64,000 nucleotides of DNA from Bryum argenteum (lineage: Eukaryota; Streptophyta; Bryopsida; Bryales; Bryaceae): the NCBI GenBank assembly GCA_037043015.1, contig CM073321.1, positions 17,419,001-17,483,000 on the forward strand. Direction: 5' to 3'. Position numbers and translations under genes: made by a program. Under the pieces are notes generated by a model. That model was not told the DNA's origin. It saw only the letters and a program-made list of their open reading frames with translations, and ran no database searches. Positions 6,314 through 26,935 of this stretch are shown piece after piece (position 1 is the first letter of the stretch; every line of letters starts with the position of its first letter).

Positions 6314-6875
6314 TGTTACCCGACTGACGTCATTGGGTAACCTCGGCGGCCAAAGCGGGAGCAGCAGCGGCAACGGAGATAGCAGCACTTTTTCGGTGGA
6401 GGCCAAAGAGATTAACTCGCAGATGCCTCGGCAGTCGATAAGGGCACCGTTCGGTTTCAGGGATATCCGCGGCAGCCGTAGTATAAAAGGTTGTAGAAAA
6501 TAGGAGAGAGACACTCGTTGTAGTCACCGTAGCAGGATATGTTCAGTTTATCTTGGCAGAACGCTTGAATGTACTCCGTTGTTATCAATTGAATACAAAG
6601 GCCATGAGCCACAGTCTTTCTCTCCCATCCTTGTGTCTCCTCATCTCTCACTTGCTTACTCCGAACACCGAGGCTTGCTTGGTAGACTTCGGCAGTAACC
6701 CTAATTGCTGTCTTAGACGTTCTACACCCACGGTACCTTCATCGCTACAGTATCACCGAGGTTACGAAGGAAGGTCCGGTGAGACAAACGGACCAGGTTC
6801 ACGGGCTTCGGTGACCTCACCACCACCACGTTTAAACCTCGGTACCCCCTCTTTTCCCTTCAAGATCAGTACTAC
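6314..6875 (+). repeat. gypsy-A 5' LTR, left part (interrupted by CACTA-1)
   Basis: It begins TGTTACCC, the inverse of the GGCTAACA that ends the right part at 18457. It contains a TATA box (GTATAAAAGG near 6480) followed by pyrimidine-rich leader-like sequence. The LTR is cut at 6875, where CACTA-1 is inserted, and resumes at 18219. Without the insertion it would be about 800 bp. The 3' LTR is missing from the window, so the start is inferred from the TG...CA termini and the primer site only. Confidence 0.5.
6873..6875. repeat. CACTA-1 target site duplication (left), TAC
   Basis: TAC immediately precedes the CACTA terminus and is repeated at 18216-18218. CACTA elements make 3-bp duplications. 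Confidence 0.75.
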
Positions 6876-6905
6876 CACTAGTACAAATCCCGGATTTTTT
6901 GACTG
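6876..6905 (+). repeat. CACTA-1 left terminal inverted repeat
   Basis: Starts CACTAGTACAAATCCCGG and matches the reverse complement of 18186-18215 at about 25 of 30 positions. Confidence 0.75.
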
Positions 6906-7460
6906 CATTTTTGACTAGCCAGCAGTCAAAAACGGACATGTTTTTCGAACTTGACTAGGACTATTTTGAGTCAAAAAGGACAAGTCGCTCCGGACATTTT
7001 GACTCGCAGTCAAAAACGGACATCGGCGTTCCCATGCGCTGCGTTCCCGACAATTTTTGGGACCTCGATTGGGCTGGACTTGGGACTTCGTTTGAATGAC
7101 TTGGAGTAGTCAAAACTTATGACTGCAACCAGTCAATAGTCATATGGGAATTACGTGAATCCGGTTGACTAAGTCTAGTTATGCTGGCAGAGTGTGGCTT
7201 ACAATACTACGACTATTTACAGTCGTACGACTTTACATAATTCACCAATGGATTCGCTTTATCTAAAGGTCACGACTACATGCAATCATCGTCGTGGTTT
7301 TAAGGAGCGTATATTGTGTGAATATGACTTTGGGGAGTGAGGTAGGGATTCAAAGTTGACTGGTTGGAGTCAATTGTGATGACTGCAGTCATTTCAGATG
7401 TCTGTGTATAGTCGAGAGTAGTGGCGACGTGGTGTCATCGGAGATGACTAATTTTTGTCA
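6890..7460. repeat. CACTA-1 left subterminal repeat region
   Basis: Many short direct and inverted copies of GACTA/TTGACT/AGTCAAAA, plus repeats of CAAAAACGGACAT. In this family such arrays are the binding sites of the TNPA-type protein. No ORF belongs here. Confidence 0.7.
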
Positions 7461-7690
7461 TGTAGTGGTGAGTTGTTAATTAATTAAGGTGTTATGTGTT
7501 TTCGTGGAGTCTAGATAGAACAGGCTACAAGTATTGCTAAATATCAATCAGAAATGCTGCACAGTTATGGGTTTGCAATTGAATTAAAATTTTAGGTGTA
7601 TGTTGTTCAAGCCGCATATACCACATGTAGTTGTACACAGTCTAGAATACATGCATGAAAGTTCTCTATAAATCTGAATCGGGTTCTAAC

Positions 7691-10600
7691 TTAGAGAAAA
7701 CACTCTAGGTGACGGAGGAATTCGGTGGGCCATGCAATCCACTGGTGGAGTGCCTCGCCAATCTTAGTCACCGGTGGATCATCGAGGGTGATGGGTTGAT
7801 AGAGGACGTAGTTGTTGTCGTAGGTTTTTAGGACTTGTACTGATAACATGCCCTCGATTAGTTGCATGCCGTAACGCGTGCCCCCCCACGCCGAGCACTT
7901 CTCAATCGGCTACGATCTTGTCTTCTTCGCCCTCGTCAACGCCCATGATGTGCACTTGGTCACCGGGTTCGAATTGAACCTGCAAACGGTTGAAAGTTAC
8001 ACATGTTAGAGAAAATTGCTAAAATGCAGTTCCATAAAGTGAATATCGGAAGGAGTTATTGCCGGACCTCGGTCGAAGTCGACGTTCGGCGGTGTTTTCC
8101 TTCCTCACCCAGTTTATTGTTGTTTATCCCCCGGGCCTTCTCCTTTGCGGTGGCATTGGAATCTGGCGTTTCCTTCGTGGCTCCTTTCTTGGTCTCCTAC
8201 ATGGCTGCTTTTGCGGTCTCCTCTAAAGGCTTCTCCTTCCTGGTTTTGCTTGTAAGCGCATCAGCCCTCTCTTTTGAATTCCCTGTTTTGCTTGCAGGGG
8301 CAACTGCAACCGCCTTCTCCTTCCTCGCTCGCTCGTCGCAGGGCAAAGACCTTCTCCTTCCCCGCTTTGCTCACCGGCATCGCCCTTCTTTTTCGCCGCT
8401 TTGCTCGTTGGAGCGACCGCCTTCTCCTTCCTCGCCTTGCTCGCTTGGGCATCGGCCTTCTCATTCCCCGCTTTGCTCGTTGGGGCGTCGGCCTTCTCCT
8501 TCCCCGTCGCCCTTGCTAGGGCATCGGCCTTCTCCTTCCCCGCCTTCGTAACTGCCTCTTTACCTTTAGTGGGGGAGTTGAGGTTCTTCTCCTTCCCCAC
8601 TTTGCTGGCAGAGGCAGGGGCCTTCTCTTTCCCCTCGTTCCCTGCCTTCGCACTAGCCTCCTTATCTTTACGCTGCGGCTCAGCGGTCCTCTTCTGGCTT
8701 GGTGCCTTCTATAGGGTCTAAACCCTTACCTGTAGTGTCGGATCTTGCCCGAGTCTGGCGTTGCTCCACGGGTTCTGCTTGGAGCTTCCACACCTCCGTC
8801 ATTCTTGGCCGTTTCCGAGCGGCCTTTGGAGCCGCATTGTCTTCTTTCAACGGGGTAGGCGAAGTTGATGCAACAATTCCAATGGCGTCGATTTCACGGA
8901 GCACCTCCAAAGTCCGGTGTGCCATCATCGACATCCGCTTCCGGAAGGAGGACGCTAACTACTACGCGTGTGCGAAGCACGCATTTGATTGTCGATCGAA
9001 TTTCACATTCGGGCATCTTCAACACGATAAACACGATAAATGAAACATTACGCTTAGTTTCATCATCTCAAATGGGTGCAAGAAAAAAAAAATAATCCAT
9101 TGGGTGATGATTCTCCCACCCGATTAGAAGCTCGTCGAGGTCCGCCAATGCAAAGGCGAGGGTGTTTGGCTCGAGTGTGGATTTCGCATTGCAGCCACAG
9201 CATCTCGGAGGGTCGAGAGTTGTTTGCGCCGCATATGATGGACCTGGAATGGGGATTCTCGGATGCTCCATAATGAGCGATATGCTCGCCTCTATACCGG
9301 ACATGCAAGAGGCCGGGTTCGTCACCGACGCCAAATGAGTTACTCGGCTTGATGGTGATCCGGGCTCTAGTCCGCTTCCTCCCGACACCTCCCTAACCAC
9401 GCCACCGCCCACCTTCCGCTTTCGGGCCCCTTTCTCACGAGCCATTTCTCTCTCTAATTCTTCCCGACTTGAGACCGCCAAGCTCCATCGCCGCCACAAA
9501 TCCATCTTGTAGTTGAATATTATTCAATCATCGCATTGTCACCGCATGGGCTCTCAACCTAATCGATCACAATATGACATAATTAAGTGAGAGTGGCCAT
9601 TACCGTGATTGGCCTTCACGGCCCCTTCCGTGCGACCACCTTGAGAGTCTCTTCACGTGTGCCCGGTTTGCTCGCATCTTCTCTCGCTTCAATGATCTTC
9701 CGCTCATCCACTATGAGTTTTGAAAGATTTACCCAAATGATCCTCCGTCTAATATGAGGAGGCTTGGGAGATCCTTCTAGCATCAATTTCTTGAGCTGGT
9801 ACCTTGCACTCTTGAGCTGGCCCTTCAACATGGTGTGGAAAGCCTTATCCGTCACCCTCTGCAAGCCTCCCTTGTACTCGAAGACGTTGTCCACCGATTC
9901 CTTCACAGCCATCAACATCGCCATATCATGCTGCGAATAATTGTCGACGCTGAAGTCTATGTCTCCTGTTTGACCACGCAAGCATGTTAGCCACGTTTGT
10001 CGATAATCCCCCACCGGGAATCCTTGGTAGTCCACCTCCACAACGAATCTCTTCTGCCCCTCGCCTTCTCGGATCGGAAGCACATCCACTTGTTGTTTCA
10101 GTACTTGCCTCCTCTTGGCCTTCTGAAGAGCATCGTAGGACCTGACCAAAGCGGGACTACTTGGGCCTTCGCCGCTGGCTCGTTGAAGCTCACCTTGCCG
10201 TGCCTGCATGGCCGCCCTTTTCTTCTGGAGGAGTTGGAGTTGTTGTTCCTCAATCGCCAAGTCCAAGTCAGCAATCTCATGATCGCGAGCGTCCATATTC
10301 TGTGTTGCACTTGGTAGGAAATCCACCACTTCTCTTCGGACATTAGATTCCGCGAACGGCTCATTCGGCGTCGTGAAGTCAAGATGGCAGCCATCTCCGG
10401 ACCATGTATCCTCTGACATCTTGGTGGGTATTGTAACTGTGATAATATCCTCAACTGAAGGAAACAGCAACGGTCGAGGGGGCCTTGGCGGTGTTGCAAA
10501 TGGCCGAGGGGGCCTTGGCGGTATTGTGGTACCTCTAGCGCTGGGAAGGTTGTCCCGCTTCTTCACACTCCAATCCTGCGGATTGGTTGCAAGTGTGTCG

Positions 10601-12056
10601 AATTGAATCGCTCTCTTTGGAGTCTTGGGAGCAGATTCTTGGGTCACTTTCGGTGATGGTGAAGACGGACGTGCCCATTTCATGGGAGGCTCCAACGGTC
10701 GTTCCTCCCCTACCGACTTGTTCTCTTCTTCGTCCTCCTCTTCAGCGCTGGATTTTGAGTCCGCGGTGGATTCCGACTCCGAAGCAACCTTCTTGCCCTT
10801 CTTGACAGCTCTTGGTGGCTGCTTCTTCAGCGGTGTCAAAATTTTTGACTCGTCCTTCGTGATCTTGCGTCCAGACCTCCTCACAGGCGGCCACAAATCC
10901 CGTTCAGGTCTCAAACGCATAGACCTTCTGGGCGGACGGATCAGGTCTTCGTCAGATACGTTCCTGGAGTCCTCAAACACATCGGTGAGAAGGATTGCGC
11001 TTCTTTCTAACACTCCGCAGAAATTTGTGGAAATAAAGCTACATTTCAAAAAAATGTGTTGAACTTCCACGTCACCGAGATTTGCAATGGTGCGCAAAGA
11101 TCGCCCGAACTTTTTACTAGGGAGTAGATTGACCAAAGATTAATCAAGATTCAAAGGCGAGAGAGTTTGACTTGTGCTCTAACCTCTTCGATGATGCTGG
11201 TGATGACTTCGAAGGGGACTGAATTTTTGCCAAGATGTTCCCTGCAAAGAAGCCCCGGATTCCGAGCTCTTTCAGGTAGGCCTGATTGCGCTCAACGTTC
11301 TTCTGCCTCTGGAGCTCGTACGCGCAGGCGGGTGCCGGAACCTCCTTCTTCTTTGGCTGTGCCCGTTTACCTCGCTTTCTCTTTCGCCTCTTCGACGAGC
11401 TGTCGGATGTGGATGTGCTGCTTGTGTCAACTGACTCAGTGGAGGACTTTGTGCTGGAGTCGGTGTCGTCTCCTTCGTGAGAGGGGTGTAATCTTCCGTG
11501 TCGCCCTCCTCACCGTCCCCCTCGTCACCGTCGCTCTCTACACCCTCGGCCTTATCGGTGCCTTGTTTGGCGTCGTAGGCTCCTCGGCGTCGCTATCTTC
11601 GGGCCGGAGCTACTCCCACACGCCCGAGCCCCCGCCCCTCCCTCACCGTTGGCTCTTCCCTTGCCGACGTCGTCCTCACACTCTTTACCCTCGCCCTCCT
11701 CACCGTCGACGTGTGTCACCTCGGCCTTCTCCTCACCGTCGCCCTCCTCACCGCCGTCACTCTCTGCAAACTACTCCTACACTCTCCCTCGTCACCCCTC
11801 GCCTTCGTCACCGCGCCTTTGTTGTTTGCTTCACCGTTGTTGACGTCCTCCTTTTCACTCGCCCCCTCGTCGTCGCCGCTACTTTTTCTATCGCCGATCC
11901 ATCGCCGTTCTCGCCGCCGCTTTGGCGTTGATCGGCGCGCTAATTTGTCGTTATCGGTGTTGCCGGATCTTTGTGACGCTAATGAGCGTCTCCTCCACGA
12001 TCTCTTCTTCTCCAACCTCGTCAATCGCTCCCACTATCGCTGCTCGCCTCACTCAT
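7691..12056 (-). CDS. TNPA-like (Ptta/En/Spm-type) protein of CACTA-1, multi-exon, partly broken
   Basis: The predicted ATG is at 12056 (MSEASSDSGSD). An acidic/basic low-complexity N-terminus follows with frame breaks, then an exon at about 11520-11163 with KRRKRKRGKRAQPKKK (nuclear-signal-like) and YELQRQKNVERN...LGI, a motif common in plant CACTA second proteins. The long exon 11136-9616 (506 codons) carries RRSMRLRP, RRSGRK, a Gln-rich coil near 10300-10200 and a C-terminal block (VDYQGFPVGDYRQTW). Possible exons follow at 9505-9068 and about 8950-8223, the latter with Lys/Ala repeats. The last exon (7979-7691) opens at a good acceptor and contains IGEALHQWIAWPTEF, matching the WP-containing C-terminus of Ptta/En/Spm proteins. 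The expected role is binding subterminal repeats to assist TNP2. Exon borders are approximate, and at least one stop and several frame changes are visible. Confidence 0.6.
8340..8560 (-). repeat. about 33-bp tandem repeat encoding Lys/Ala-rich units
   Basis: On the minus strand about six imperfect units encode KEKADA-type peptides separated by TSKAG-like linkers, roughly 11 codons each. The repeat lies inside a predicted exon of the TNPA-like gene. Confidence 0.7.
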
Positions 12057-12514
12057 GACTCCATCTCTCTCCAAATCGATCGAAAAAAATTCATTTTTGC
12101 CGCAAAATGACAAACCATGGCGGAAAATTGGAGTGCAAGGAGGAAGAAGAACATCATGTGCGTAGGCGGCTATGATCTTCGTTGATGTTACTCGATTTGA
12201 CACTCAAATCGTAGAAGATTTCAAATGACGGCGTTGCTTTAAATGCAATTAGGGTTGGCGACCACCTACCAACCTACTCGTAGGCACCCCGGCTACTACA
12301 AATAACCGTTGTTTTTCAAAATTGCGCATCTTCCCGAGCACATGCATACTATCATCCCAATGACTAAGATGACCGTGTTGACTATGGGTAGTCAAATTAA
12401 CCCTTCTTAGTGACCCGTTCTAGTCACACCGTGACTACCGTCGACCAAGAGTCATACTCTTAGTCAAGTGGTTCATCATCAATCATTTGGTTCATCATTT
12501 TCATGCAGTAATCG
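12057..12514. promoter_or_regulatory. divergent intergenic region with internal TGACTA/TAGTCA motif cluster
   Basis: The ATG codons of the two CACTA-1 genes face away from each other across about 460 bp. Positions 12350-12470 contain about eight TGACTA, GTGACT or TAGTCA motifs in both orientations, the same family as the subterminal repeats at both ends. An internal cluster at the shared promoter suggests self-regulation by the TNPA-like protein. It could instead mark an old nested CACTA end, since CTACTACAAATAACC at about 12287 is terminus-like. Confidence 0.45.
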
Positions 12515-12712
12515 ATGGACACACAATCGCGGAGGGAGCTGGCGGACTTGTCATTGTGGAAAGAGGAGGAAAAAGAGGCTGATGCACATGGACTCACTAG
12601 TTACTCATGTCCCTGCAAGCGATGCATGGGGGGGAGACGTATGCATCGGGAGACAATCCGGAAGCACCTGCGCTTGTACAAACGCGATCCCCAACTCACA
12701 AAATCTATACTG
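12515..12712 (+). CDS. Transpos_assoc N-terminal exon of the CACTA-1 transposase
   Basis: The start is ATG at 12515 (MDTQSRRELADLSLW). The exon carries SCPCKRCMGGRR followed by TIRKHLRLYKRDP, the CPC-x2-C plus basic HL helix pattern of the Transpos_assoc domain found at the N-terminus of plant TNP2-type CACTA transposases. The frame is open to a donor-like CTG|GTTAGT near 12713. It reads in the same direction as the TNP2 core 1 kb downstream, so it is probably exon 1 of that transcript. Confidence 0.65.
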
Positions 12713-12836
12713 GTTAGTGACCTATCGACCACCCTCTCTCAGTTTCGGCCTTTGCAATTTGTGATCAAAGATTCCCTTAATTTCTCCTTCAAAGAACATA
12801 GCGGAACTTAATGCAGACCAAGTGTTAACAATGTAG

Positions 12837-13430
12837 GAACAACGTCGGCCGCTTGTTCTTGCTGCAATTACAAACGCGCTGCAAGGGACTATTTCGGCAA
12901 AGATCCCTATAATAGGAAAGCTCGTTGATAGAACACCTACAGAATCTAACGCGTGCGCTTCAACGTCGACAAGATTACACGGACAATGGCATCCAGGTCC
13001 TATCCCAAAGTTGACGCAGTTTACATTTTTCGGCCGTACTTGGGAGATTAAAGTTTCAAAGTTCCCTTTCATGGGATGGGGTTTGTTTGCCATGCAGCCA
13101 GCAGCTGTAGGCGTTGAGTTGCTGCCGTTTGTGGGCACTCTCTACTCGCGATCTGAGTATCGTTCACTATGTACTTCCAATCCGCGATTCAAACGATACG
13201 TCTTGCAACTGCAGAATAATGTCTATCAGGATGGTGATGTACTAAATGGAAATGTTGCGCGCTTCATCAATAGTAGTAAAGGACGACACGAAATAGGGAA
13301 TTGCATCTGGGAGTACATTGATTTACCTAGACCATGGTGTAAACACGAATGGGGGTACACAATGACCGTCGCAACCCGAGACATTGCAGTTGGAGATGAT
13401 TTGTATACTTTCTATCATGTGAATCAATAA
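12837..13430 (+). CDS. SET-domain (putative lysine methyltransferase) ORF inside CACTA-1
   Basis: An open frame of 197 codons plus stop. Residues from about 58 onward show SET-domain order: a GWGLFA glycine-loop motif, an LPFVGTLYS strand, NVARFINSSK in the place of the canonical RFINHSC, and DIAVGDDLYTFYHV in the place of the GEEL...Y motif with the likely catalytic Tyr. The His and Cys of NHSC are replaced by Ser and Lys, and no pre-SET or post-SET cysteines are seen. A TAG at 12834-12836 interrupts a frame that is otherwise open upstream, so the 5' end may be spliced or damaged. The first internal Met is at 13011. It lies between the Transpos_assoc exon and the TNP2 core, same strand, with its own TAA. 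It could be a captured host gene, an exon of the transposase transcript, or an element-borne gene. Its substrate is unknown. Confidence 0.65.
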   Translation, partial: EQRRPLVLAAITNALQGTISAKIPIIGKLVDRTPTESNACASTSTRLHGQWHPGPIPKLTQFTFFGRTWEIKVSKFPFMGWGLFAMQPAAVGVELLPFVGTLYSRSEYRSLCTSNPRFKRYVLQLQNNVYQDGDVLNGNVARFINSSKGRHEIGNCIWEYIDLPRPWCKHEWGYTMTVATRDIAVGDDLYTFYHVNQ

Positions 13431-13711
13431 AGGAATACGATTTGCAAACTTGATTTTGAATGATACTAACAGATGCACAGACTTCCTGCCACTCACATTC
13501 TTAATTTTTTTTCTATATGTCTCTTGCATGTGGACTATTAGCAGAATACTAATTTCATGTTTGATCTCATGCTCGTGTGTCATTGTAGAGGGTACAAGTG
13601 GACTCTCCAACACGTTCTCGGCCTCTTTGTCACAAACCCTCGGGACCAAACAAAACCAATCCGGTCACCGCTCCACCAATGAGAGCGAAATCGTCACAAA
13701 GTGTGTGACGA

Positions 13712-16106
13712 CAGATTGATGTTCACCGAATGATTGTTGAATGCTTAGGCCGATATGACAATGACGACGTAGTTCTGCATGATGAGGAAACGTCCCCATC
13801 ACATTCAGAGTTACCTGCAAGTGAACTGGAGGGAGACATGAACTACCCACAAGCAAACATGAACATGGATGGCGAGGGAGAAGTAGAAGACATGACAAAT
13901 TTGTTTGAGCAGTCAACAAAGCCGTTGTTTGAAGGATCTCGGCACAGTACATTGGTAGCCACCCTCCTTATACAGAACTGCTTTACAGTGTTTGGTGTGA
14001 CAAACAGCTTTAGAAATGAGATGTGGAAGTTGTTGAGGGAGCTCTTGCCATGTCCTAACTCTCTACCAACATCCCAATACCTAGCTATGAAATACATTCA
14101 ACGAATGGGAGTGAGCTATGTGTCCATTCACGCATGCCAAAACGGGTGTTGCCTATTCAGGAAGGAATTGCAAGATGCAAAAGTCTGTCCTAAATGCAAC
14201 ACTTCGAGGTATGTGCACAATTCTTCCACTCGCCCGGTGAAGGTGCTCCGCCACTTTCCGCTTATTCCTCGGTTGTTACGAATGTTTCGCTGCAAACGTC
14301 TAGCTGAGCTAAACAAATGGCATGCAACAAGGGAGAAAACTGATGAGAAAGTGGAGTGCGTACCGGACTCGAAGGCATGGAAACACATAAACAAGTTGTA
14401 CCCAGAGTTTGCATCATCAGAACGCAACATTCAATTTGGTTTGGCATTAGACGGTGTTAATCCCTTCTCGAACCAATCGTTGAGTCACTCTACGTGGCCC
14501 ATACTACTGTTCAACTACAACCTCCCCCCCTGGCTTGTTACAAAGCAATTCTTCATCATGCTAGCCTTGTTAATTCCTGGCAAAGAAAGTGTGACATCTG
14601 AAAATATAGACGTCTACATGGCCCCACTAATAGAGGAGTTGCAAATACTATGGGGTGGTTTGATGCCGTAGATGTCTCTGCTTCTGAGAATAGAAGGCAC
14701 TTTCGTATGTTTGGAATGTTAATATGGTGTATACATGATTTTCCTGCATATGGCTTAGCCTCAGGGCAAGTAACAAAAGGTTACAGGGGCTGCCCAGAAT
14801 GTGGACCACACGTCACTACAAGGAGATCAGCCGCCCTCGGGAAAAACATCTATTTAGGTCATCGGAGGTTTTTGAGATTGAACCATCCATATTGGCGAAT
14901 GAAACGAGCATTCGATGGCCACGAAGAACAACGTCCCCCCCCCCCACGAAACTTGTCAGGGCGGGATATTATGCGATTTGCACTTCAACGACGCAGATGG
15001 CAACCTCAGTCGTCTCCAACAACGAATGACGGTGAAATTGATCCAGTCCATGATACAGGGGTGAAGCGCTTGTCGGCCTTGTATGGCCTTCCATACTGGA
15101 AGGTACATACTTTATCTCCGTACATTACATTCCTATGCATGGGGGTACACATTGTGATGGTGTTAACGTTTCTACTAATGATCACTAATTCTGTCCCTCC
15201 GCTTCTGCAGTTCCTGATGATTCGGCATGTTTTAGATGTCATGCACTGTGAAAAAAACCTATGCGAGAACATATTGAAAACAATATGGGGATTGAAGGAC
15301 TCGCTGAAAGTCCGTCTGGATCTAACAGAGGTGAACATACGCCCAGAATTGCATCCGATACCTGGAAAGAAGCCGGGGTCTCTTGCTCTACTGTCATATG
15401 TTCTTTCGAAGAAGGAAAAAGAAATATTCGTAGGAATACTCCGGGGTTTGAAAACGCCCACCAACTACGTCGGGCATCTAGCAAAGAGGATAACTACAGA
15501 TGGTGACTTGAAGGGGTTGAAATCCCACGACTACCATGTATTGATGCAGCAAATTTTACCCCTTTGCATCGGGACGTTGCTGCGGAAGGACGTGCGTGTA
15601 GCCATTCTAAGAATATGTCGGGTATTTCATCAATTGTGTATGAAGGCTATCGATCCAACAAGTATAAAGGGGTTGCTAGAGGAGACGTCTATAGCAATGT
15701 GCTTGCTTGAGAAGGTTTTCCCCCTTCATTCTTTGATGTCATGTCCCACCTTCCAATTCACCTTGTTCAACAATTGGATATTTGTGGACCAGTACACACA
15801 CGATGGATGTACCCAGTGGAGAGGTATCTCAAAATTTTAAAAGGCTATGTTCGACAACGTAACCGCTCGGAGGGATCGATGGCAGCGGGGTACGTGATGG
15901 ACGAAACTCTTGGCTTCTGCACCGAATACATGCAGGACTGCACCTTAACGCAACGTCGGATTTGGGATGATATGGAAGACCCAAGAATGTACGATGAGAT
16001 ACTGGAAGGCAACGGCCGCCGCAGGATATTAACAGATGAGCTGCGTCAATGGATTCACGAATTCGTCCTAAACAACGCCGATATACTAGAAATCTACAAA
16101 GAGTAA
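13712..16106 (+). pseudogene. TNP2-type CACTA transposase core plus DUF4218 (frameshifted)
   Basis: The exon probably opens after ACGACAG near 13711. The TNP2 domain includes a Cys-rich stretch (ACQNGCCLF, VCPKCNTSRY), the first catalytic Asp in LALDGVNPF (about 14450), the second in CIHDFPAYG (about 14740), then RGCPECG and MHCEKNLCENI. The DUF4218 region follows: MSHLPIHLVQQL, GPVHTRWMYPVERYL and EGSMAAGY. Two single-base frame changes are visible, near 14650 and at a C-run near 15722. The locus ends at AAAGA|GTAAGC near 16106, a good donor. In this family the protein cuts and joins transposon ends in the nucleus. With the frameshifts as written it would not be full length, but one of them is a homopolymer change that could be sequence error. 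Confidence 0.75.
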
Positions 16107-16198
16107 GCAATGAACATCCCACCTTTTGTTGCGTGATACGCACCGCTGCTTTTGCATAAGTCATGTCCTAATTAACCCGATTCATGCTTGCAATGTAG

Positions 16199-17040
16199 GC
16201 AATATACCACAACAATGGCCGCCAAAGAACGTGCAAGGGGAGAGTGGCGAAGACGGAACCGTCGCCAGAATTCCAAGGTCCCGGATTATTTGCAAGCGCA
16301 AGCGTTTCACAAATGGTTTGTTGCAGAAATTAAGTGCAATTTGGAGAGAGGACATGACACACCAGAGGATGTCAAAGCTTTGGTTTTCCCTCCGTCGTTG
16401 GAGGCAAGGTCATATCGATCCATGTACGCTTACGGGAATCATATTCGTGTCCACATAGCAGAAGCTGATCTACTCACATGTGACAGTGGTGTCTCAGCAA
16501 CATTCTCACAAGACTGTCCGGCAAGTTTGCAAGATCGAAACATCAGAAATGCAAACTTGGAGTACATTGGATGGGTGGAGGAGATCATAGCAGTCAACTT
16601 TGGGAGGTACGAACTTGTTGTACTGTATTGTAATTGGATAAAGGCAAATACATCTGGTGCCCGAGCGACAGTGAAGCGCGACGAGTACGGATTCACGCTT
16701 ATCGAGTTCGGGAGATTGATCCCGTTCTGGGCTGACTCATTTGCATTTCCCCGACATGTTCAACAGATCTATACCGTCGACGTAGTTGATAATCCAGGAT
16801 GGAAGATCGTGCTCAAGAATACCACGCAGCAGTTTCGAGTTGCCTCAAGCAATCGATGATCTCCCGAGCTACAATGTCTTCAAATGCAATGTGTTGACGC
16901 ACATCCAGGCCTACTACCAAATATACATGTGGATGATGTTACACAAAGCGCTCCAAAGATTTCAAGGGTGTCGGATGATGAGTACGAATGAAGTGAATAT
17001 GGAGATGCACATTCAGGATTCAGAAGACCCTGACATTTGA
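16199..17040 (+). CDS. DUF4216-type C-terminal exon(s) of the CACTA-1 transposase
   Basis: An acceptor-like TGCAATGTAG precedes the exon. The frame to 16859 has an Arg-rich start, then YLQAQAFHKWFVAEI, ARSYRSMYAYGNHIRV and the DUF4216 core: NLEYIGWVEEIIAVNFG, VVLYCNWIKA, DEYGFTLIEFGRL and PGWKIVLKN. This domain commonly follows TNP2 in plant CACTA transposases. The frame ends after FRVASSNR, and similar coding appears to continue in other frames to about 17040, so the true 3' end is uncertain. Confidence 0.65.
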
Positions 17041-18085
17041 AACTACATACACCATAGCAAGAACTACCGCTATCTGGCCTCGTTGCAAGTGATTGTACTT
17101 CCTACCTTCGCTTGTTAGTATTGGTTTTCGAAAAGTTACATTACTCTCCCTGGCCTTTGGCGCTCTTTATGTTTTTGATGTTAGAATCTTGTTTCATTGG
17201 ATGCAGTATAGTTACAATTGTCCAAACATTGTATGAGCATGTTTGTCCCTCGTGTATTTCACTAAGGCATGAGCTGTACCTGTACAAATCAGTGATCATG
17301 AATGCTGAAACTTGTCACAAATTGCCGCCAGGATTCACGCTAAACCGCCCATGCATGATGTGCACCAAATTTTGCCTAAGTGGGCCATTTGACAAAGTCG
17401 TTTTTATGATCCAAACTCCTTTGAACTTATATGATTGAGAAGGTGTATGGAGTCACCATACTCAGATTTTTCTTAACCTATCAACTTTATCACGGATCAT
17501 AAAGATCATAAACTTTGATGCTAATAATTACCTCCAACCTCAGAAGGGGAATTGGCTGTCTCATTAATTTTTAATTTTTCAATTAACTGGCTATGAATGT
17601 ACCATGAATCTATTATGAGAAGTCAATGAATTGATGATCATGTTGTTCCACCTTGGATTAAATATGTACTTATAGTAACCATTTGCATAAGCAATATGAT
17701 TTCAGAAGATAGTCTTTAATTAGTACTTGTAACTATCTCCTTGCCGGTATTCACATTAATTTACATCTGAAATCTTAGATCTAACAAAGATACAACTTTT
17801 TGTGATTTTGATATTCTAGATAGTTACTTGCAAATAAAATTTGTACAATGACGAATAAAATAATTATGCAAAGAGACCAGGATTTGGGCTTAACCGAAGC
17901 CAAACCTCAAACCTCAAACTCACTCAAAGATTATGGAGAGCATCCGAAAAATCCCGGATTTTTTTGTAGTAATGTCTTATGATCACGTGCGATCATATTT
18001 CGAGAGGAGGATGCGTCGAAGGAGATGACGTCCGTCGGGAACACACACCAAATTCTGTTCCCCGAAAGTTCCCATCGAGGTGCCG
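17041..18085. other. CACTA-1 3' non-coding region, nothing recognised
   Basis: AT-rich and with no convincing gene; the 108-codon ORF at 17112-17438 has no recognised features. A sequence resembling a CACTA terminus (GGATTTTTTTGTAGTAATG) lies near 17955-17973 without a clear partner. Confidence 0.4.
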
Positions 18086-18185
18086 CTATTTGTTGACTAC
18101 ACATATGACTAAGCCTTGACTATGGACAATTTGACTACAATTTTTGACTCGTTTTTAAAAATTTGACTAGGCAGTCAAGTGCCCC
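18086..18185. repeat. CACTA-1 right subterminal repeat region
   Basis: Five or more copies of TTGACTA/ATGACTA/TTTGACT in about 100 bp next to the right terminus, matching the left and internal clusters. Confidence 0.7.
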
Positions 18186-18215
18186 CAGTTAAATAATCGT
18201 GGTTTTGTACTAGTG
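18186..18215 (-). repeat. CACTA-1 right terminal inverted repeat
   Basis: Read on the minus strand it starts CACTAGTACAAAACCACG. It is followed on the plus strand by the duplicated TAC at 18216-18218. Confidence 0.75.
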
Positions 18216-18218
18216 TAC
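18216..18218. repeat. CACTA-1 target site duplication (right), TAC
   Basis: Identical to 6873-6875 and directly adjacent to the element end. Confidence 0.75.
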
Positions 18219-18457
18219 CCACCGATTCTATTCGTGGGTAAAGTAAAAATAAGAAAGAAGAAGACGACTGAAATGCCCCTCCTTCCGCAGCACAACCAAT
18301 GTTGCCGAAGTCAACGCTCGGCCTTTTTGGCTACTCCCTGCTGTCCCTGTTAGACCGAGCATAGCTCGGCCTCCCTCGTTATCCACTGCCATCCCAAACC
18401 TGCTACCTCTAGCGGATGAGCTTGTAAAGCACTCCATCCTCGTTACGCAGGCTAACA
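18219..18457 (+). repeat. gypsy-A 5' LTR, right part
   Basis: The continuation of the LTR that starts at 6314. It ends GGCTAACA, three bases before a primer-binding site, which fixes it as the U5 end of a 5' LTR. Confidence 0.55.
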
Positions 18458-18460
18458 TTT

Positions 18461-18479
18461 TGGCGACCATGCTGGGGAC
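18461..18479 (+). other. gypsy-A primer-binding site
   Basis: TGGCGACCATGCTGGGGAC directly follows the LTR. It begins with TGG, as expected for complementarity to a tRNA CCA end, and resembles TGGCGAC...TGGGGAC sites of plant gypsy elements. The tRNA was not assigned. Confidence 0.6.
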
Positions 18480-18532
18480 GGAGAGTTGAGTCATCCAGCA
18501 AAACAGGAAACAAAAACGTCAAACACGACACA

Positions 18533-19506
18533 ATGCCTCCACGAAAAGCAACAGAAAGAACCGCGGAACCTGAGGAGGTTATACCCCAAGAAGACCAAGA
18601 TACCACGAGAGAACTTCTCCAATGGATGAAACAACAAATGACAGATTTGGTGGCAAAAAACGACGCCACCAATGCCAAGATCGAAATATTAAACTCACAC
18701 TATCTCCAAGCGGTAGGAGCATCAACGACTGTTCCGCCCATCGTTACCATGGCCGGACCATCACAGCTACCACCGATTGATCCAAACATAGCCGCTTCTA
18801 TGGCATCAAGGAAAGGGATCGGCTCATCAAGCTACCAAAGATACCTTACCCAATCTTTGATGACTCCGGAGATCCTGATTGGCACATACGCAGGTTTAAA
18901 GTAATAGCTCAAACCAACGGTGTTACCAGCACCGAAGACCTACAGAACATCTTCGGAACCACCCTTCAGGGCAACCACATCAACTGGTACATTGATTTCG
19001 AAGCCGAACATTTGTTGCCGACATGGGAAGAAATGGAGCGTAGCTTTTTGCAGAAGTTCCGAAAGTTAAAAACAAGCTCGGAAATACTCCGAGCTTTAGG
19101 CAATATACAGCAAGAAAGAAACGAACTTGTCGACAAGTTTTACGACAGATTCAAACAACTGGCCGACAAACTCAGTCAACGGCCTGAAGAAGACTACCTA
19201 TGTGAATGGTTCAAAAAGGGCTTGCTACCGTGGATACAACAGGGCATTATCATCCGCGGTGTAAAAACGTTGCAGGAGATACTCACAGCCGCCAATGACA
19301 TTAGCAGGGAATTCGGCGTCATAGACAGAAACGACAACCGTTGCTTCCGCTACCAAGAGTGCCTATTAGGGGGACAGCGGCACCATGCACTACTTGCGGC
19401 AAACTACATGCGGGGCGTTCTTTGGTTTTCCAATACACCGCAAGAACGGAAGATACTCGGACCACGCGAACAAAGGCATCCATGTACCCGGAGGAAGTCG
19501 ATGTAG
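18533..19506 (+). pseudogene. gypsy-A gag
   Basis: The start is ATG at 18533 (MPPRKATERTAEPEE). A frame change near 18890 leads to DWHIRRFKVIAQTNGV and then the retrotransposon gag core: LQGNHINWYIDFE, WEEMERSFLQKFRK, ERNELVDKFYDRFKQL. Cys/His-rich sequence follows from about 19390 in other frames (CTTCGKLHAG; CGYPHHRRGQC) and may be decayed zinc knuckles. In the living element Gag would form the particle. Several breaks make this non-functional. Confidence 0.65.
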
Positions 19507-19704
19507 ACGCTGCTTTCAACCAAACAAACGATGGTCATTGGGAATGCGGATACCCACACCACCGACGAGGCCAATGCCCCGTGTTAAGACAAATAAACCA
19601 ACACCCGTGCTACCACGGACACCAAGGCACATCCCGGCAGCACCGAAGCTACTGCCGGCAACAGAAGGGGGGGAGTTACACTTACCGAAGTCCACGGCAC
19701 CAAC

Positions 19705-20969
19705 GTGGCTACCATAAGTACAGCCGCGGTAACCACAAGATCTAAGGCTACCTTAGATAAAACCGATAAACATGTCATAGAACATCGCAAGCCTTTTGCG
19801 GAACAGCATTGGGAAAGATTGAACAAACTGCGAACTCAAATTCAAAACGACCTGGATACAGCGGTGGTCCCAGAACTGCAACAAGTATTAGAAAAAACCG
19901 ATGTGCGCATTACATTAGCCGATCTGTTGAAGATTAGCCCAGAATTGCAGACATACCTGCAAAATATGCACACTATCCCAACAAAAGGCACGACAACCGT
20001 GGAGATTAATGCGACAACCATAGACACCGATGCCGCCGTCATACATGTCCGATTAGGACAACACCAACTGGCCAATGTATTAGTTGATGGAGGCTCCGGA
20101 GTCAACGTTAGCAGCGATCTCCTAAGACAACAGTTGGGACTACCACACCCTACAACAGCACAGTTCGTTTTGAGAATGGCGAATGATGCCCCTACCCCCA
20201 TTGGGAATACTTTCCACCGTGGCCATCACAACTCACGGTATCTCTACACCGGCAACCTTCGTCGTGATCGACATGCCAGACAGCAGCAATTTCCCTATGA
20301 TTTTGGGCCGACCTTGGTTAAGAGACATGAATGCAATTCATGACTGGGCCAGAAATCAGATCAGAATTCGAAGATACGGGAAAACAATGATCATTCCCGT
20401 GGACAGCTGCATCACTCGAGAAAAAGTCAAACAGATCAGGAATCAGGCCGGCACGGCCTGGGGGAAAGGTCTCACGCACGAGCAAGAAGCCCTGGTGTTC
20501 CACGCCGACCTCAATCTGATTCCGCTGGCGGAGATTCACTTGGCCAGCGTGGTTTCGAGGAGGAGGATACCTCGATATCCCACCCAGGTTCACCACCGAG
20601 GTTTCCAAAACAGTCATAATTGATAAAACTCCGGCAGCCGAAGCTTTAAGTAAACAAGTAGTCACTGGGTGGACACATGGCTCCACAGAGCAAGTACAAT
20701 TGGTCAACCTCGGCACCGAAAACGAACCAAAGAATGTCAAGATCAACGCCGACGCACCGCCTGAAATCAAACAAGCAACAATAGCTCTCTTCAAAGAATA
20801 CCATGATATCTTTGCCTGGACGCATGAAGACTTAAAGGGGATACCGAGGACTATAGCCGAACACACTATAGATCTGATACCGAATGCTCACCCGGTACAA
20901 CAACGCCGGTACCGCATGAATCCAAACTATGCTGTCAGAGTCAAAGCAGAGCTCGACAAGCTGCTCTCT
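19705..20969 (+). pseudogene. gypsy-A pol, truncated in reverse transcriptase
   Basis: The protease is visible as LANVLVDGGSGVNV with the catalytic Asp, and further along as MILGRPWLRDM after a frame change near 20180. The region before RT has FKEYHDIFAWTHEDLKGIP, and the N-terminus of RT (RRYRMNPNYAVRVKAELDKL) stops at 20969, where the LTR of element B starts. The rest of RT, RNase H and integrase is absent from the window. The DIFAW...GIP wording is typical of Tat/Athila-like gypsy elements. Confidence 0.7.
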
Positions 20970-22279: not shown

Positions 22280-22311
22280 TTTAGTACCCAAGTGCAAAGT
22301 TGTGAGGAGCA

Positions 22312-23456
22312 ATGGGCAAGAAGAAGACCATTGAGGGTGATGAGCCCGGAGCTTCCAAGCGGCCACGCACGAGGGGGAACAAAGACCCCGATCCTACAAG
22401 TGAGGCTCATTCTCATGACTCCAATGAGCAAGCGCCACTAGGTGAGGGCAATGAGCAAATGGAATTGTCACTTCAAGAGGAGCCCTTGGGTGAAGAGGAG
22501 CGCTCTAGGTCGAGACGCCTAGAGTCTTCCCAAAGGGTGGAAAAACAAGATCCTCAATTGGCTTTCCAAATGAGAATGCTTGAGTTCATGGACTCCGTGA
22601 ATCAAGAGCTCAAGCGTGGGAAGGAAGAAAGGGATCGCCAAGAGAGGTTGATTGAACACCTCATGATGCAAGGGTCCCGACCTTCATCTTCCACCAAAAA
22701 GTTGGCTAAGGTAAACATGCCAAGCACCTTCTCGGGACTTGGTAAGGCAAGGAAGGTGAAGGAATTCCTTCTTGAGATGGATAACTACTATGATGTCCAA
22801 AAGCCGGATGAGAAGACAAGGTTTCCATTGCGGTGACATTTCTCAAGGATCATGCTCTTCAATGGTGGACAAGCAAAAAGGAGCAAGAGCCGGAGTTGGT
22901 GGCAAACTTGACTTGGGGTGGCTTCAAAGACTTGTTGAGTGAACGCTTCACACCGTAGTATCGGGAGTTGAGGGAAGGCATGAACTTGGTGCAAATGAGG
23001 CACACCGGGTCTCTCAAGGCCTATGTGCGTGACTTCAATGCCCAAATGAATGCCACACCCAAGATGGATGAGTTCTCTAAGAAGTGCATCTTTTTGGGTG
23101 GGCTTCAAAAGTGGGTGGTGGATGCCTTGTTCAAGTTCCCAAAACTTCCCGAGGATGTGGCGGGCATCATCAAGATTGTTGAAAGGATTGAGGCCGATGG
23201 ACCCGAGAGGAAGTCAAGTGGCCCCTCTCAACAAAGCGGATCAAATAGGAATGCGGCTCGAGGCAAAGAGCGCAAGAAGTTTGGCTTTGGCAACAAACAC
23301 AAGGGACAAGTGGATGGTGGAGCCTCTAACAAAAGGAAACACCAAGGGGAAAGCCATCTAAAGGGGGAGACAAAGGTGATGACACCAAGGCCAAGAGGTG
23401 CCATGGTTGTGGCAAGATTGGCCACTTCATTGCGGAGTGCCCCGACAAGAAGGTGA
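22312..23456 (+). pseudogene. Element B gag
   Basis: The start is ATG at 22312 (MGKKKTIEGDEPGASKR). A charged coiled N-terminus precedes the gag core: VNMPSTFSGLGKARKVKEFL, then, after a one-base loss in a G-run near 22820, TFLKDHALQWW, LLSERFTP and MRHTGSLKAYVRDFN. A TAG replaces a codon near 22957. The zinc knuckle CHGCGKIGHFIAEC lies near 23400-23450 in a shifted frame. The frame breaks are mostly single bases. Confidence 0.75.
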
Positions 23457-23540
23457 GTACCATTGCAAGTCTTGCTTGTGTTGAAGACCGCATACTAGAA
23501 GGAGGTTTTGTGGCCAAGGCAAGTAGCCTCAAGCCAAGGC

Positions 23541-26500
23541 CGGGCCTCTTGTTTCTTGAGGCCCAAGTGAAGGACAAAGATGTCTCATGTTTGGTTGATA
23601 CAGGGCAACGCACTCCTTCATGAGTCCCAAACTAGCAAGGGAGTTGGGCTTGCCACTGCAAAAGGCAAGCAAGCCCATCAATGTGCGTTTTGCAAAGGGC
23701 GAACCGCACAAGACGGAGGAAGTGGCGTTGCAAGTGACCTTGAAGTGTGGGACATTGGAGTTTGTTGAGAATTTCACATTATGTGAGATGGATGAGGTAG
23801 ACCTCATCTTAGGGGATACCTTCTTTGAGGCGCACACGGTGGATGTGAGGCACAAGCCAAAGACGGTTAGTGGTGCGCCGTGATGGCAAGGAGTTAGTGT
23901 TGAAGTTAACTCGTGGCCCTTCAATAGCGGGGGCAAATTAAACTTGGTCTCTTTAGACCAAATGTTGGAACATCAATTTGTGGTGATGGCTCGTGAAGAG
24001 CAACTTGGGCATGAGGGGAAGGGGGTGCAACAACCACTTCCCAAAGAAATTCAAGAGGTGTTGGCCAAGTACAAGGATGTGCTTACCAATGAGTTACCCA
24101 AAGAGCTACCCCCAAGAAGAGAAGTGGATCACAAGATCGAGGTGCTACCTGGAGCTGAGCCACCTTCTAAGGCACCTTATCGGTTAAACCAAAAAGAGTT
24201 GATGGAGCTAAAGAAGCAACTAAACGACTTGTTGGAAAGGGGTTATGTGAGACCAAGCAAGTCACCATATGGTGCACCGGTCCTCTTTGTGGACAAGAAG
24301 GATGGCAAGCTTAGGATGTGCATTGATTATAGGGCCTTGAATAAGGTGACCATCAAGAACAACTACCCTTTGCCTCGAATTGATGATCTCTTTGATAGAT
24401 TGGCGGGAGCTAAGTACTTTAGTCGCATAGACTTGAAGTCGGGTTACTACCAAATCCGCATTGCGGATGCGGACGTAGAAAAGACCGCGTGCCGCACAAG
24501 GTATGGGTCTTATGAGTTCCTTGTGATGCCCTTTGGGTTGTGCAATGCACCCTCAACATTCACAACCCTTATGAACACCATCTTTCGAGAGGAAATGGAT
24601 GACTTTGTGATTGTCTACATCGATGACATCTTGGTGTTTTCCAAGACGGCCGAGGAACATGCAAGGCACCTTGAGGCGCACTCATGAAGCTTAGAGACAA
24701 CAAGCTTTATGCTAATGGGGAAAAGAGTGAGTTTGCACAACTTGAGATGGAGTTCTTGGGCCATGTGGTTACCGGAGATGGAATCAAGCCGGACATGAAG
24801 AAGGTGAAGGCAATTCAAGAGTGGAAGCGGCCTTCTACACAAAAGGGACTTAGGTCATTCCTTGGCCTAGCAAACTACTATCGCCGCTTCATACGCAACT
24901 TCTCTAAGATTGCCAAGCCTTTGTCCGACTTGTTGAAAAAAAAGGGTGAACCAAGTATGGGATGAATTTTGCTACCAAGCCTTTGAGGAACTCAAGAACA
25001 AGTTGTCATCTCCACCAGTGTTGAAGTTCCCCGAGTTTGATAAGCCCTTTGAGGTCCACACGGATGCAAGTGACTTTGCCATTGGAGGCGTCTTGATGCA
25101 AGATGGTAGGCCAATTGCCTATGAGAGCAAGAAGTTGGATGGGTGTCAAAGGAGATGGCCAACTCACGAGAAGGAGCTCTTTGCGGTGGTGCATTGTTTG
25201 AAGACATGGCAACATTACTTGGGGTTGCACAAGACTAAGGTCTACACCGATAATGTGTCTTTGAAGTATTTTGAGACACAAGCACAAATGAGTGCCAAAC
25301 AATTGAGGTGGCATGATACTTTGGCGCTCATGAATGTGGACTTGATCCACAAACCGGGCCGTGACAATGTAGTGCCGGATGCGCTAAGTAGAAAGGAAGA
25401 GTTTCATGCCATGAGCACCACCCAAGTCTTGCGGCTCATGTATAAGGGTGAAGGCAATTGGGAACGGCGGATAAGAGAGGGGTACATAAAGGACCCCGAG
25501 GCACAACAAATGCTTGGTGATCTTAGGAAGGGCAAGAAGCTCAAGGAGATCAAGTTGGTGAATGGATTGCTCAAGTATAAGCAAAGTAGGGTGTATGTTC
25601 CTCAAGGCAAGCTTAGATTGTTGGTTTTGAAGGAGGAACATGATAGTCCCATAGCCGGCCATAGGGAGAAAAGGCTACCATTGCAACGGTGTCAAGGAGG
25701 TACTATTGGCCGGGGATGAAAGATGACATAACCCACTTTGTGAAGACTTGTGTGAAGTGCCAACTTAACCGGGCTTCATATCAAAAGCAAGCGGGCTTGT
25801 TGCAACCATTGCCAATTCCGCCGGGTCCTTGGCATAGTGTGTCTATGGACTTCATCACAAGCCTTCCCGAGTCGCAAGGGTATGATGCCATCTTAGTGAT
25901 GGTGGATCGGTTTAGCAAGTTGGCTCATATGGTGCCAACTAGAGGAATCTACTGGCTAACGCTTGAGACCGCCAAGATCTTTCTCGATGCATGGTGGAAG
26001 CATCACGGGTTGCCAAGAGTGATTGTGTCGGATCGAGACCCAAAGTTCACAAGTGCATTTTGGAGACACTTCTTTAGGAAGGTGGGAACCAAGTTGACAT
26101 TTAGCACCGCCTTTCATCCTCAAACAGATGGGCAAACCGAAAGGGTGAATGGGGTCTTGAACCAAGATGCTTGAGGAACTTTGTGAGTGCGGACCAACGT
26201 GATTGGGTAGACTATGTGGGGTTGGCGGAGTTCGATTACAATGCGGCCACACACTCGGCGACTAAGGAGTCACCTTTCAAAGTGGCCTATGGAGTGGAGC
26301 CACTCCAACCTCGCCGACTTAGCTCTCGAGGGGGCACATTCAACACCGAGTTCAACCAAGATGGTGAAGACTTGGCCAAGAAGCGGGAACATATGTTGGA
26401 AAAAACCAAGTTGTTGTTGGAGAAGGCAAGAAGGCGCTATGAGAAGCAAGTCAATGCCGGAAGACGTGAAGTGGAGTATGAGGTGGGACAAAAGGTGTTG

Positions 26501-26935
26501 TTGAATGTGAAGAACTTCACCATGCCCGAAGGCCTCACTCCAAAGTTCATGTCCAAGTTTGCGGGTCCGTTTCCCATTGTGGAACGGGTGTTCAAAGATG
26601 TGTATAAGTTGGAGCTACCACCCGAGATCAAAGTGCATCCAACATTCCATGTTTCATTGTTAAAGCCATTCAAGGAGGATACCTTGTGGCCGGATCGCAA
26701 GCAAGTGATTCGGCCACCACCAGAGTTGGTTGGACAACATTTGGAATATGAGGTAGAGGCCATCCTCAAGAGTAGGAACCTCAAAAACAAGAGCAAGGAA
26801 TACCTTGTGAAGTGGCGAGGATACCACGAGAAAGAAGCAACGTGGGTGGCGGCAAAGGACATGGTGAATGCTAAGGAGGTGGTGGAGAACTTTGAGAAGA
26901 ATAGGAGCTCCAACAAGAAGCAACGTAGGCATTGA
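23541..26935 (+). pseudogene. Element B pol: protease, RT, RNase H, integrase, chromodomain
   Basis: Order seen: protease (LVDTG near 23590, one base missing from a G-run, then FMSPKLARELGL); RT 23944-24965 with [14 protein letters not shown] and the YIDD catalytic box near 24620; RNase H from about 24990 (VHTDASDFAIGG, HEKELFAVVH, VYTDNVSLKY); integrase from about 25640 with HH-CC zinc residues (TCVKCQ), SMDFITSLP, SDRDPKF and KESPF giving D, D, E; and a chromodomain near 26740-26910 (YEVEAILKSR, YLVKWRGYHEKEATW). It ends at TGA 26935. Single-base changes near 23600, 24680, 24940, 25670 and 26165 split the frame. All catalytic motifs are otherwise intact. Confidence 0.85.

Follow-up and report, generated by a model that had tools for sequence, protein, structure and literature searches.

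What is a SET-domain gene doing inside a transposon, and does it belong to the element that carries it? The question is raised by a stretch of Bryum argenteum DNA (hereafter the window: the whole 64,000 nucleotides analysed, C1:17419001-17483000, within a genome assembly of 258.8 Mb in 25 contigs that was the genome searched here). The initial annotation of the window had placed a SET frame inside a complete CACTA element and had suggested that the element either carries a methyltransferase with which it alters its own chromatin state or has captured a host gene. The reading that we favor, with a probability of roughly one half, is that a clade of CACTA elements carries a SET exon making a self-targeted TPA-SET protein, whose lysine methylation would aid or tune the expression of the element.

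The element and its genes

Two divergent genes are found within the element, a minus-strand frame of 506 aa and a plus-strand series consisting of TPA (Transpos_assoc-like), SET, TNP2 (Transposase_21), DUF4218 and DUF4216.

6876..18215, plus strand: complete CACTA element, 11,340 bp, with exact 12-bp terminal inverted repeats
6873..6875, strand not applicable: left target-site duplication TAC, 3 bp
18216..18218, strand not applicable: right target-site duplication TAC, 3 bp
9619..11139, minus strand: divergent second gene, 506-aa frame, repeated beside TPA/SET loci
12515..12712, plus strand: TPA exon, putative 5' coding exon with ATG; Pfam E 2.2e-4, length divisible by 3
12713..12836, plus strand: putative GT...AG intron between TPA and SET, placed from the sequence
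12837..13430, plus strand: SET exon, 197 codons and a stop, its frame right after a TAG acceptor; Pfam SET E 2.6e-7
13589..14668, plus strand: start of the TNP2 exon, with a phase-0 acceptor at 13589 and the first core ORF from 13709 (Pfam and copy comparison)
14602..15837, plus strand: second TNP2 core ORF, in a different frame; Transposase_21 E 4.4e-27
15711..16103, plus strand: DUF4218 part of the transposase gene; Pfam E 1.4e-30
16176..16856, plus strand: DUF4216 part of the transposase gene; Pfam E 1.4e-5, 26.0 bits, just under the cut-off of 30.6

Both termini and the target-site duplication are as annotated. The terminal repeat, CACTAGTACAAA, is found at 6876-6887 (plus) and 18204-18215 (minus) with 0 mismatches, TAC flanks it on both sides, and the 3' end of the element is common to other copies in the genome. 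The subterminal motif TTGACT is present six times in the first 600 bp and five times in the last 600 bp, against 0.18 times per 600 bp in between. CACTA termini, a 3-bp duplication, a TNP2-type transposase and a repeated subterminal motif together identify the element as CACTA / En-Spm. The position claimed for the SET frame, between a Transpos_assoc exon and the TNP2 core, was confirmed with a weak TPA match upstream (21.8 bits, under the cut-off of 27.7) and strong Transposase_21 matches downstream (E 1.2e-36 and 4.4e-27 in Pfam). The two TNP2 core ORFs are in unlike frames, the frame is broken before 13709 and the N-terminal part is interrupted in comparison with the copies L010, L012, L014 and L015, indicating that the window copy is probably non-autonomous, though its SET frame is open.

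No Pfam family reaches its cut-off with the 506-aa frame. Scoring 85 of 204 candidates in the genome gave at least 78 matches to it, many of them adjoining TPA/SET loci on the opposite strand. This frame and a second one at 11144-11509 (minus) make up the divergent gene, the C-terminal half of which is ca. 33–47% identical to frames located beside SET-bearing elements of other families. To the right of the element, long plus-strand frames at 18428-20623 and 22306-26932 resemble by eye the gag and pol of retrotransposons; the ORF at 18428-18901, the sole right-flank frame checked, had no family match in Pfam.

The SET domain

The SET frame comprises codons 12837-13427 and the stop 13428-13430. 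Residues 80-193 of its product match positions 1-104 of the 105 in the Pfam SET profile (31.4 bits, cut-off 22.4), and when the bases of the exon were shuffled 20,000 times the frame never stayed open, so an open frame of this kind is not due to chance. The motifs GWGLFA, ARFINSS and GDDLYTFYHV, which had been read as a SET series, are all present and in SET order. Conservation was followed in an alignment of 49 sequences, 27 from the same genome and 22 from the protein database.

13071..13091, plus strand: MGWGLFA, GxG region; G82 in 48 of 49 aligned sequences
13263..13277, plus strand: FINSS at the place of the F-I-N-H-S motif, with Ser for His; N145 in 45 of 49, S146 in 45 of 49
13413..13415, plus strand: Y193, at the place of the C-terminal Tyr; Tyr in 46 of 49, gap in 2

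We take MGWGLFA to be the cofactor-binding GxG region of SET and Y193 to be the position of the catalytic C-terminal Tyr; in general, the roles given here to conserved residues are presumably those of known SET enzymes. The GxG and the C-terminal Tyr of active SET methyltransferases are thus present, and N155 is also kept (48 of 49). The N-H-S-C motif of active methyltransferases, on the other hand, reads N-S-S, and its alteration, already remarked in the initial annotation, proved to be real and to extend over the whole family. The pattern is inherited and not a product of decay, and decay confined to the window copy could be discarded. In addition, the pocket Tyr is Phe in all 49 sequences, and the protein ends a few residues past Y193, leaving no post-SET cysteines. 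The position before F-I-N is Gly in 46 of 49 sequences, so that the Arg of the window copy is unusual.

The N-S-S, the pocket Phe and the missing cysteines mean that the enzyme may be dead. These same three features are what recommend a different view of the protein, namely that SET is no longer an enzyme and that, within a TPA-SET regulator, it serves to bind histones, cofactor or the transposase; the regulator might for example be a repressor or stabilizer of the transposase. The retention of G82, N145, N155 and Y193 speaks against it, as does the fact that the nearest solved sequences are active enzymes, and we consider this alternative rather doubtful.

Predicted structures bear on whether there is a SET fold at all, the lack of which would have overturned the annotation. 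A family member from the database, P0008, was predicted to have a SET fold, with one of five models confident, similar to those of MLL1, EZH2, SET8, SET7/9 and ASH1L at ca. 20–26% identity in the structure matches. The model of the window's own protein was poor (pLDDT 45.4, pTM 0.39), so its SET fold follows by homology to P0008.

Copies and families

A DNA search with the SET exon gave 26 matches in the genome, 13 of which (the window included) had at least 92% identity over almost the whole exon. At the protein level there were 94 matches at E 0.01 or better, merged into 73 loci. TPA was located 70–383 bp upstream in 62 of these loci and TNP2 28–2246 bp downstream in at least 41, a lower bound obtained with 125 of the 585 TNP2 candidates scored. 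Among the fetched loci, the order TPA-SET-TNP2-DUF4218-DUF4216 was found in four diverged families, A (that of the window), B, C and D. The expectation that other CACTA copies would carry the SET ORF at the same position was therefore borne out, and the opposite outcome, a SET frame absent from all other copies, was ruled out by the genome DNA search and the fetched loci. Some of the fetched copies were truncated or interrupted, six of them without TNP2, and a SET match of at least 175 residues was uninterrupted in 28 of the 73 loci (counted by eye in the table).

One could argue that the SET loci belong to the host, as genes or as a gene family, and merely neighbor CACTA elements, as 32 of the 73 have no scored TNP2 match downstream (again with 125 of 585 candidates scored). 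However, the TPA exon lies directly upstream in 62, at least some of the 11 loci without it are truncated, and the SET frame of the window lies deep within an element that has both termini and a target duplication, all of which makes this possibility scarcely credible.

SET is limited to a part of CACTA diversity, being carried by 34 of the 38 best TNP2 matches versus 7 of the 87 others scored. A SET-less subfamily was represented by L052 and L053 and by TPA matches at C4:134851, C4:286625, C4:357612 and C1:5425441; its TNP2 is 63% identical to that of the window, closer than those of families B, C and D. These relatives exist in several copies, indicating that SET is not required for every amplification.

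A second subfamily (L011, L013, L016, L017, L018 and L019) belongs to the window's family and is non-autonomous, retaining TPA, SET and the 3' end. The stretch matching 13629-17675 of the window is missing and is replaced by an array of ca. 190-bp repeats, the repeat-bearing gap being 5.4 kb long in L011 and 707–1854 bp in the other five copies. L019 has three 3' ends in tandem. In all six copies the SET frame has stops or shifts, one stop recurring in L011, L013, L016 and L017 and another in L011, L017, L018 and L019; with its frames broken this subfamily says nothing in favor of function. Several of the SET stops in close copies (L010, L011, L015, L022) resemble C-to-T or G-to-A changes, for instance at CAG and TGG codons, and look like those expected from methylated cytosines. 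In family B, the SET frame of L047 (C2:26300053) is cut near its end and the next TNP2-like match on the same strand is ca. 56 kb away (C2:26356494), possibly because nested insertions have split the locus.

The protein database yielded 103 relatives, all named no further than “hypothetical protein.” In two of the database ORFs, P0094 and P0103, a single open frame covers TPA and the beginning of SET, which shows that the arrangement also occurs outside this assembly; the stretch in between is also open, and an intron is not needed in these two. In a viral collection 8 stretches matched a pattern with the SET protein and 70 with the profile, and in a collection of prokaryote genomes 25 matched the SET profile, none of them a relative.

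Selection and descent

The families were compared using one copy of each. Synonymous differences were saturated (pS 0.75–0.91 for SET, 0.77–0.87 for TNP2) and nonsynonymous ones stayed low in both (pN 0.34–0.39 and 0.31–0.35), indicating that SET has been held nearly as tightly as the transposase. The resulting pN/pS was 0.39–0.52 for SET, with pS saturated, and 0.36–0.43 for TNP2. The comparison points to purifying selection on SET between families. Pooled within each family, pN/pS came to 0.34 in A, 0.86 in B, 0.72 in C and 0.55 in D. The high values are what copies drifting once inserted would show, and selection acting at present cannot be read from them.

Each family came out as a clade in trees of 18 loci, whether built from SET or from TNP2, with stems of similar length, and so no movement of SET between families was seen; the order of the families was unresolved in both trees, as were most forks inside A. 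The simplest history would be a single acquisition of SET before the families split, followed by descent together with the transposase. The other suggestion of the initial annotation, if it is taken to mean that a fragment of a host gene was captured recently and only once, is unsupported because SET is common to families that are ca. 50% identical; it was rejected on the strength of the 73 loci and the selection between families.

A passive form of the capture idea is that SET is a passenger, of the kind found in Pack-CACTAs, with no function for the element. The SET-less subfamily, the broken frames of the TNP2-less one and the within-family pN/pS, which is not low in B and C, could all be read this way. 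Set against them are the occurrence of SET in four families whose synonymous sites are saturated, its constraint, about equal to that of TNP2, and the 28 loci with uninterrupted matches. Besides, a Pack-CACTA is an element without its own transposase gene, and here, the six TNP2-less fetched copies aside, TNP2 follows SET in at least 41 of the 73 loci. We regard a mere passenger as very unlikely. The claim that the element carries a SET gene is well supported as a matter of anatomy, given the same position in four families, the conserved positions of the splice sites and the purifying selection between families; that the gene alters the chromatin state of the element would be a further step, taken up below.

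Splice anatomy

Of the 43 fetched loci, 32 have a TAG acceptor directly before the SET frame, which starts elsewhere in the other 11 owing to shifts or truncation; the TPA exon ends at GT in 25 of 26 sequences, the GT being lost in L022. The TNP2 exon follows a phase-0 acceptor in families A, B and D; in C, where L033 has a duplication of 20 bp and L035 carries changes, the phase is not readable. All readable junctions are in phase 0. Families A, B and D have the stop of SET at almost identical positions, and in C it comes ca. 12 codons later; the frame is four codons longer in L039 and runs on in L045 and L047. In the window, TPA and SET can be read as one frame of 263 aa. SET-less elements show what lies at this position otherwise: in L052 and L053 a short stretch, apparently containing a phase-0 intron, separates TPA from TNP2, and in the more distant L054 TPA and TNP2 share one frame. 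From these junctions we infer that SET is an alternative exon located in the TPA-TNP2 intron.

The same junctions could be used in another way. If a donor just before the SET stop were active, SET would be included as a cassette exon, giving a fusion transposase TPA-SET-TNP2 with a layout similar to that of SETMAR. In favor of this, families A, C and D have a phase-0 GT(A/G)AA(C/T) immediately ahead of the stop, and in A, B and D the TNP2 acceptor is in phase 0. However, the GT(A/G)AA(C/T) is also plain coding sequence for a conserved Val-Asn, the comparable GT of family B is not in phase 0, and the SET stop, needless for a fusion, is conserved. Such a fusion seems unlikely to us.

Proposed function

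Our preferred reading of a self-targeted TPA-SET protein would work as follows. In a CACTA (En/Spm-type) clade, a SET exon would have entered the phase-0 intron between TPA and TNP2, most simply in a single event, and would have been kept during divergence into at least four families. The TPA exon would be spliced in frame either to TNP2, giving the transposase, or to SET with its own stop, giving the 263-aa TPA-SET protein. The Cys/His-rich TPA part would recruit SET to the DNA of the element itself, a DNA-binding role suggested for TPA by its Cys/His pattern and its place in transposases. There, SET would most likely methylate a lysine of histones (or of the transposase), helping the element to stay expressed or tuning it. 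Action on the chromatin of its own element is our best guess, by analogy with what is described for VANC of VANDAL (PMC5735166) and for the TET genes of fungal EnSpm (PMC12730594). The weak likeness to Set1 and ASH1L favors an activating effect, a direction that is a guess.

A fuller version can be stated as well: one CACTA gene, by the use of one or the other of two phase-0 acceptors, would code for a transposase or for a lysine methyltransferase targeted to its own element, both with the same DNA-binding TPA exon; the enzyme would place an activating mark on the element's own copies as anti-silencing, long established and in several plant lineages. All of this together is possible, and we advance it tentatively. 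If TPA-SET works as proposed, the transposase gene of a plant DNA transposon would contain a writer of chromatin marks aimed at the element itself, the evasion or tuning of silencing by such elements would become directly testable and the protein would be a compact tool combining targeting and SET. Even if SET is inactive, its tight retention between families implies a long-run dependence of these elements on the exon.

Comparison with known systems

SET genes are already known in DNA transposons. According to PMC12730594, which cites Repbase Reports 2014, HarbingerS and MuDR elements of Phytophthora carry a SET histone methyltransferase gene; they belong to other superfamilies and other hosts than the Bryum CACTA, and the comparison is one of descriptions only. 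In the open-licence library searched we found no CACTA or EnSpm element with SET, and a CACTA-borne SET appears to be new. The initial annotation had pointed to SETMAR (Metnase), and the likeness holds loosely, in that both pair a SET domain with a DNA transposon protein. SETMAR is, however, a primate host gene fused to a mariner transposase, whereas the transposase of the window is Transposase_21 and its SET is an exon of a multi-copy element; as this exon has its own stop, a straight fusion with the transposase is not the simplest product. Among solved structures the best profile matches were the SET domains of Set1/COMPASS and ASH1L (E 2.2e-6 and 1.2e-3), from which the CACTA SET differs by its N-S-S for NHSC and its lack of post-SET cysteines.

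Pack-CACTAs are likewise CACTA elements with extra sequence of presumed host origin. They are described in PMC8616336 as non-autonomous carriers of captured pieces, unlike the families studied here, in which SET is a constant part of transposase-bearing elements. In fungi, a TET/JBP dioxygenase is carried by EnSpm elements and by other DNA transposons (PMC12730594); here too there are EnSpm/CACTA-type elements with an acquired gene for a chromatin- or DNA-mark enzyme and a proposed escape from silencing; there, unlike SET, the enzyme carries out DNA demethylation and the hosts are fungi. Finally, VANC of the Arabidopsis VANDAL elements (MuDR-type) is element-encoded and influences the chromatin state of the family that encodes it, with anti-silencing demonstrated (PMC5735166). 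The proposed TPA-SET would likewise be a plant-element protein acting on the chromatin of its own family, a role given to it by analogy, in a different superfamily and with an anti-silencing effect that is experimental for VANC and only inferred for TPA-SET. To our knowledge VANC has no SET domain.
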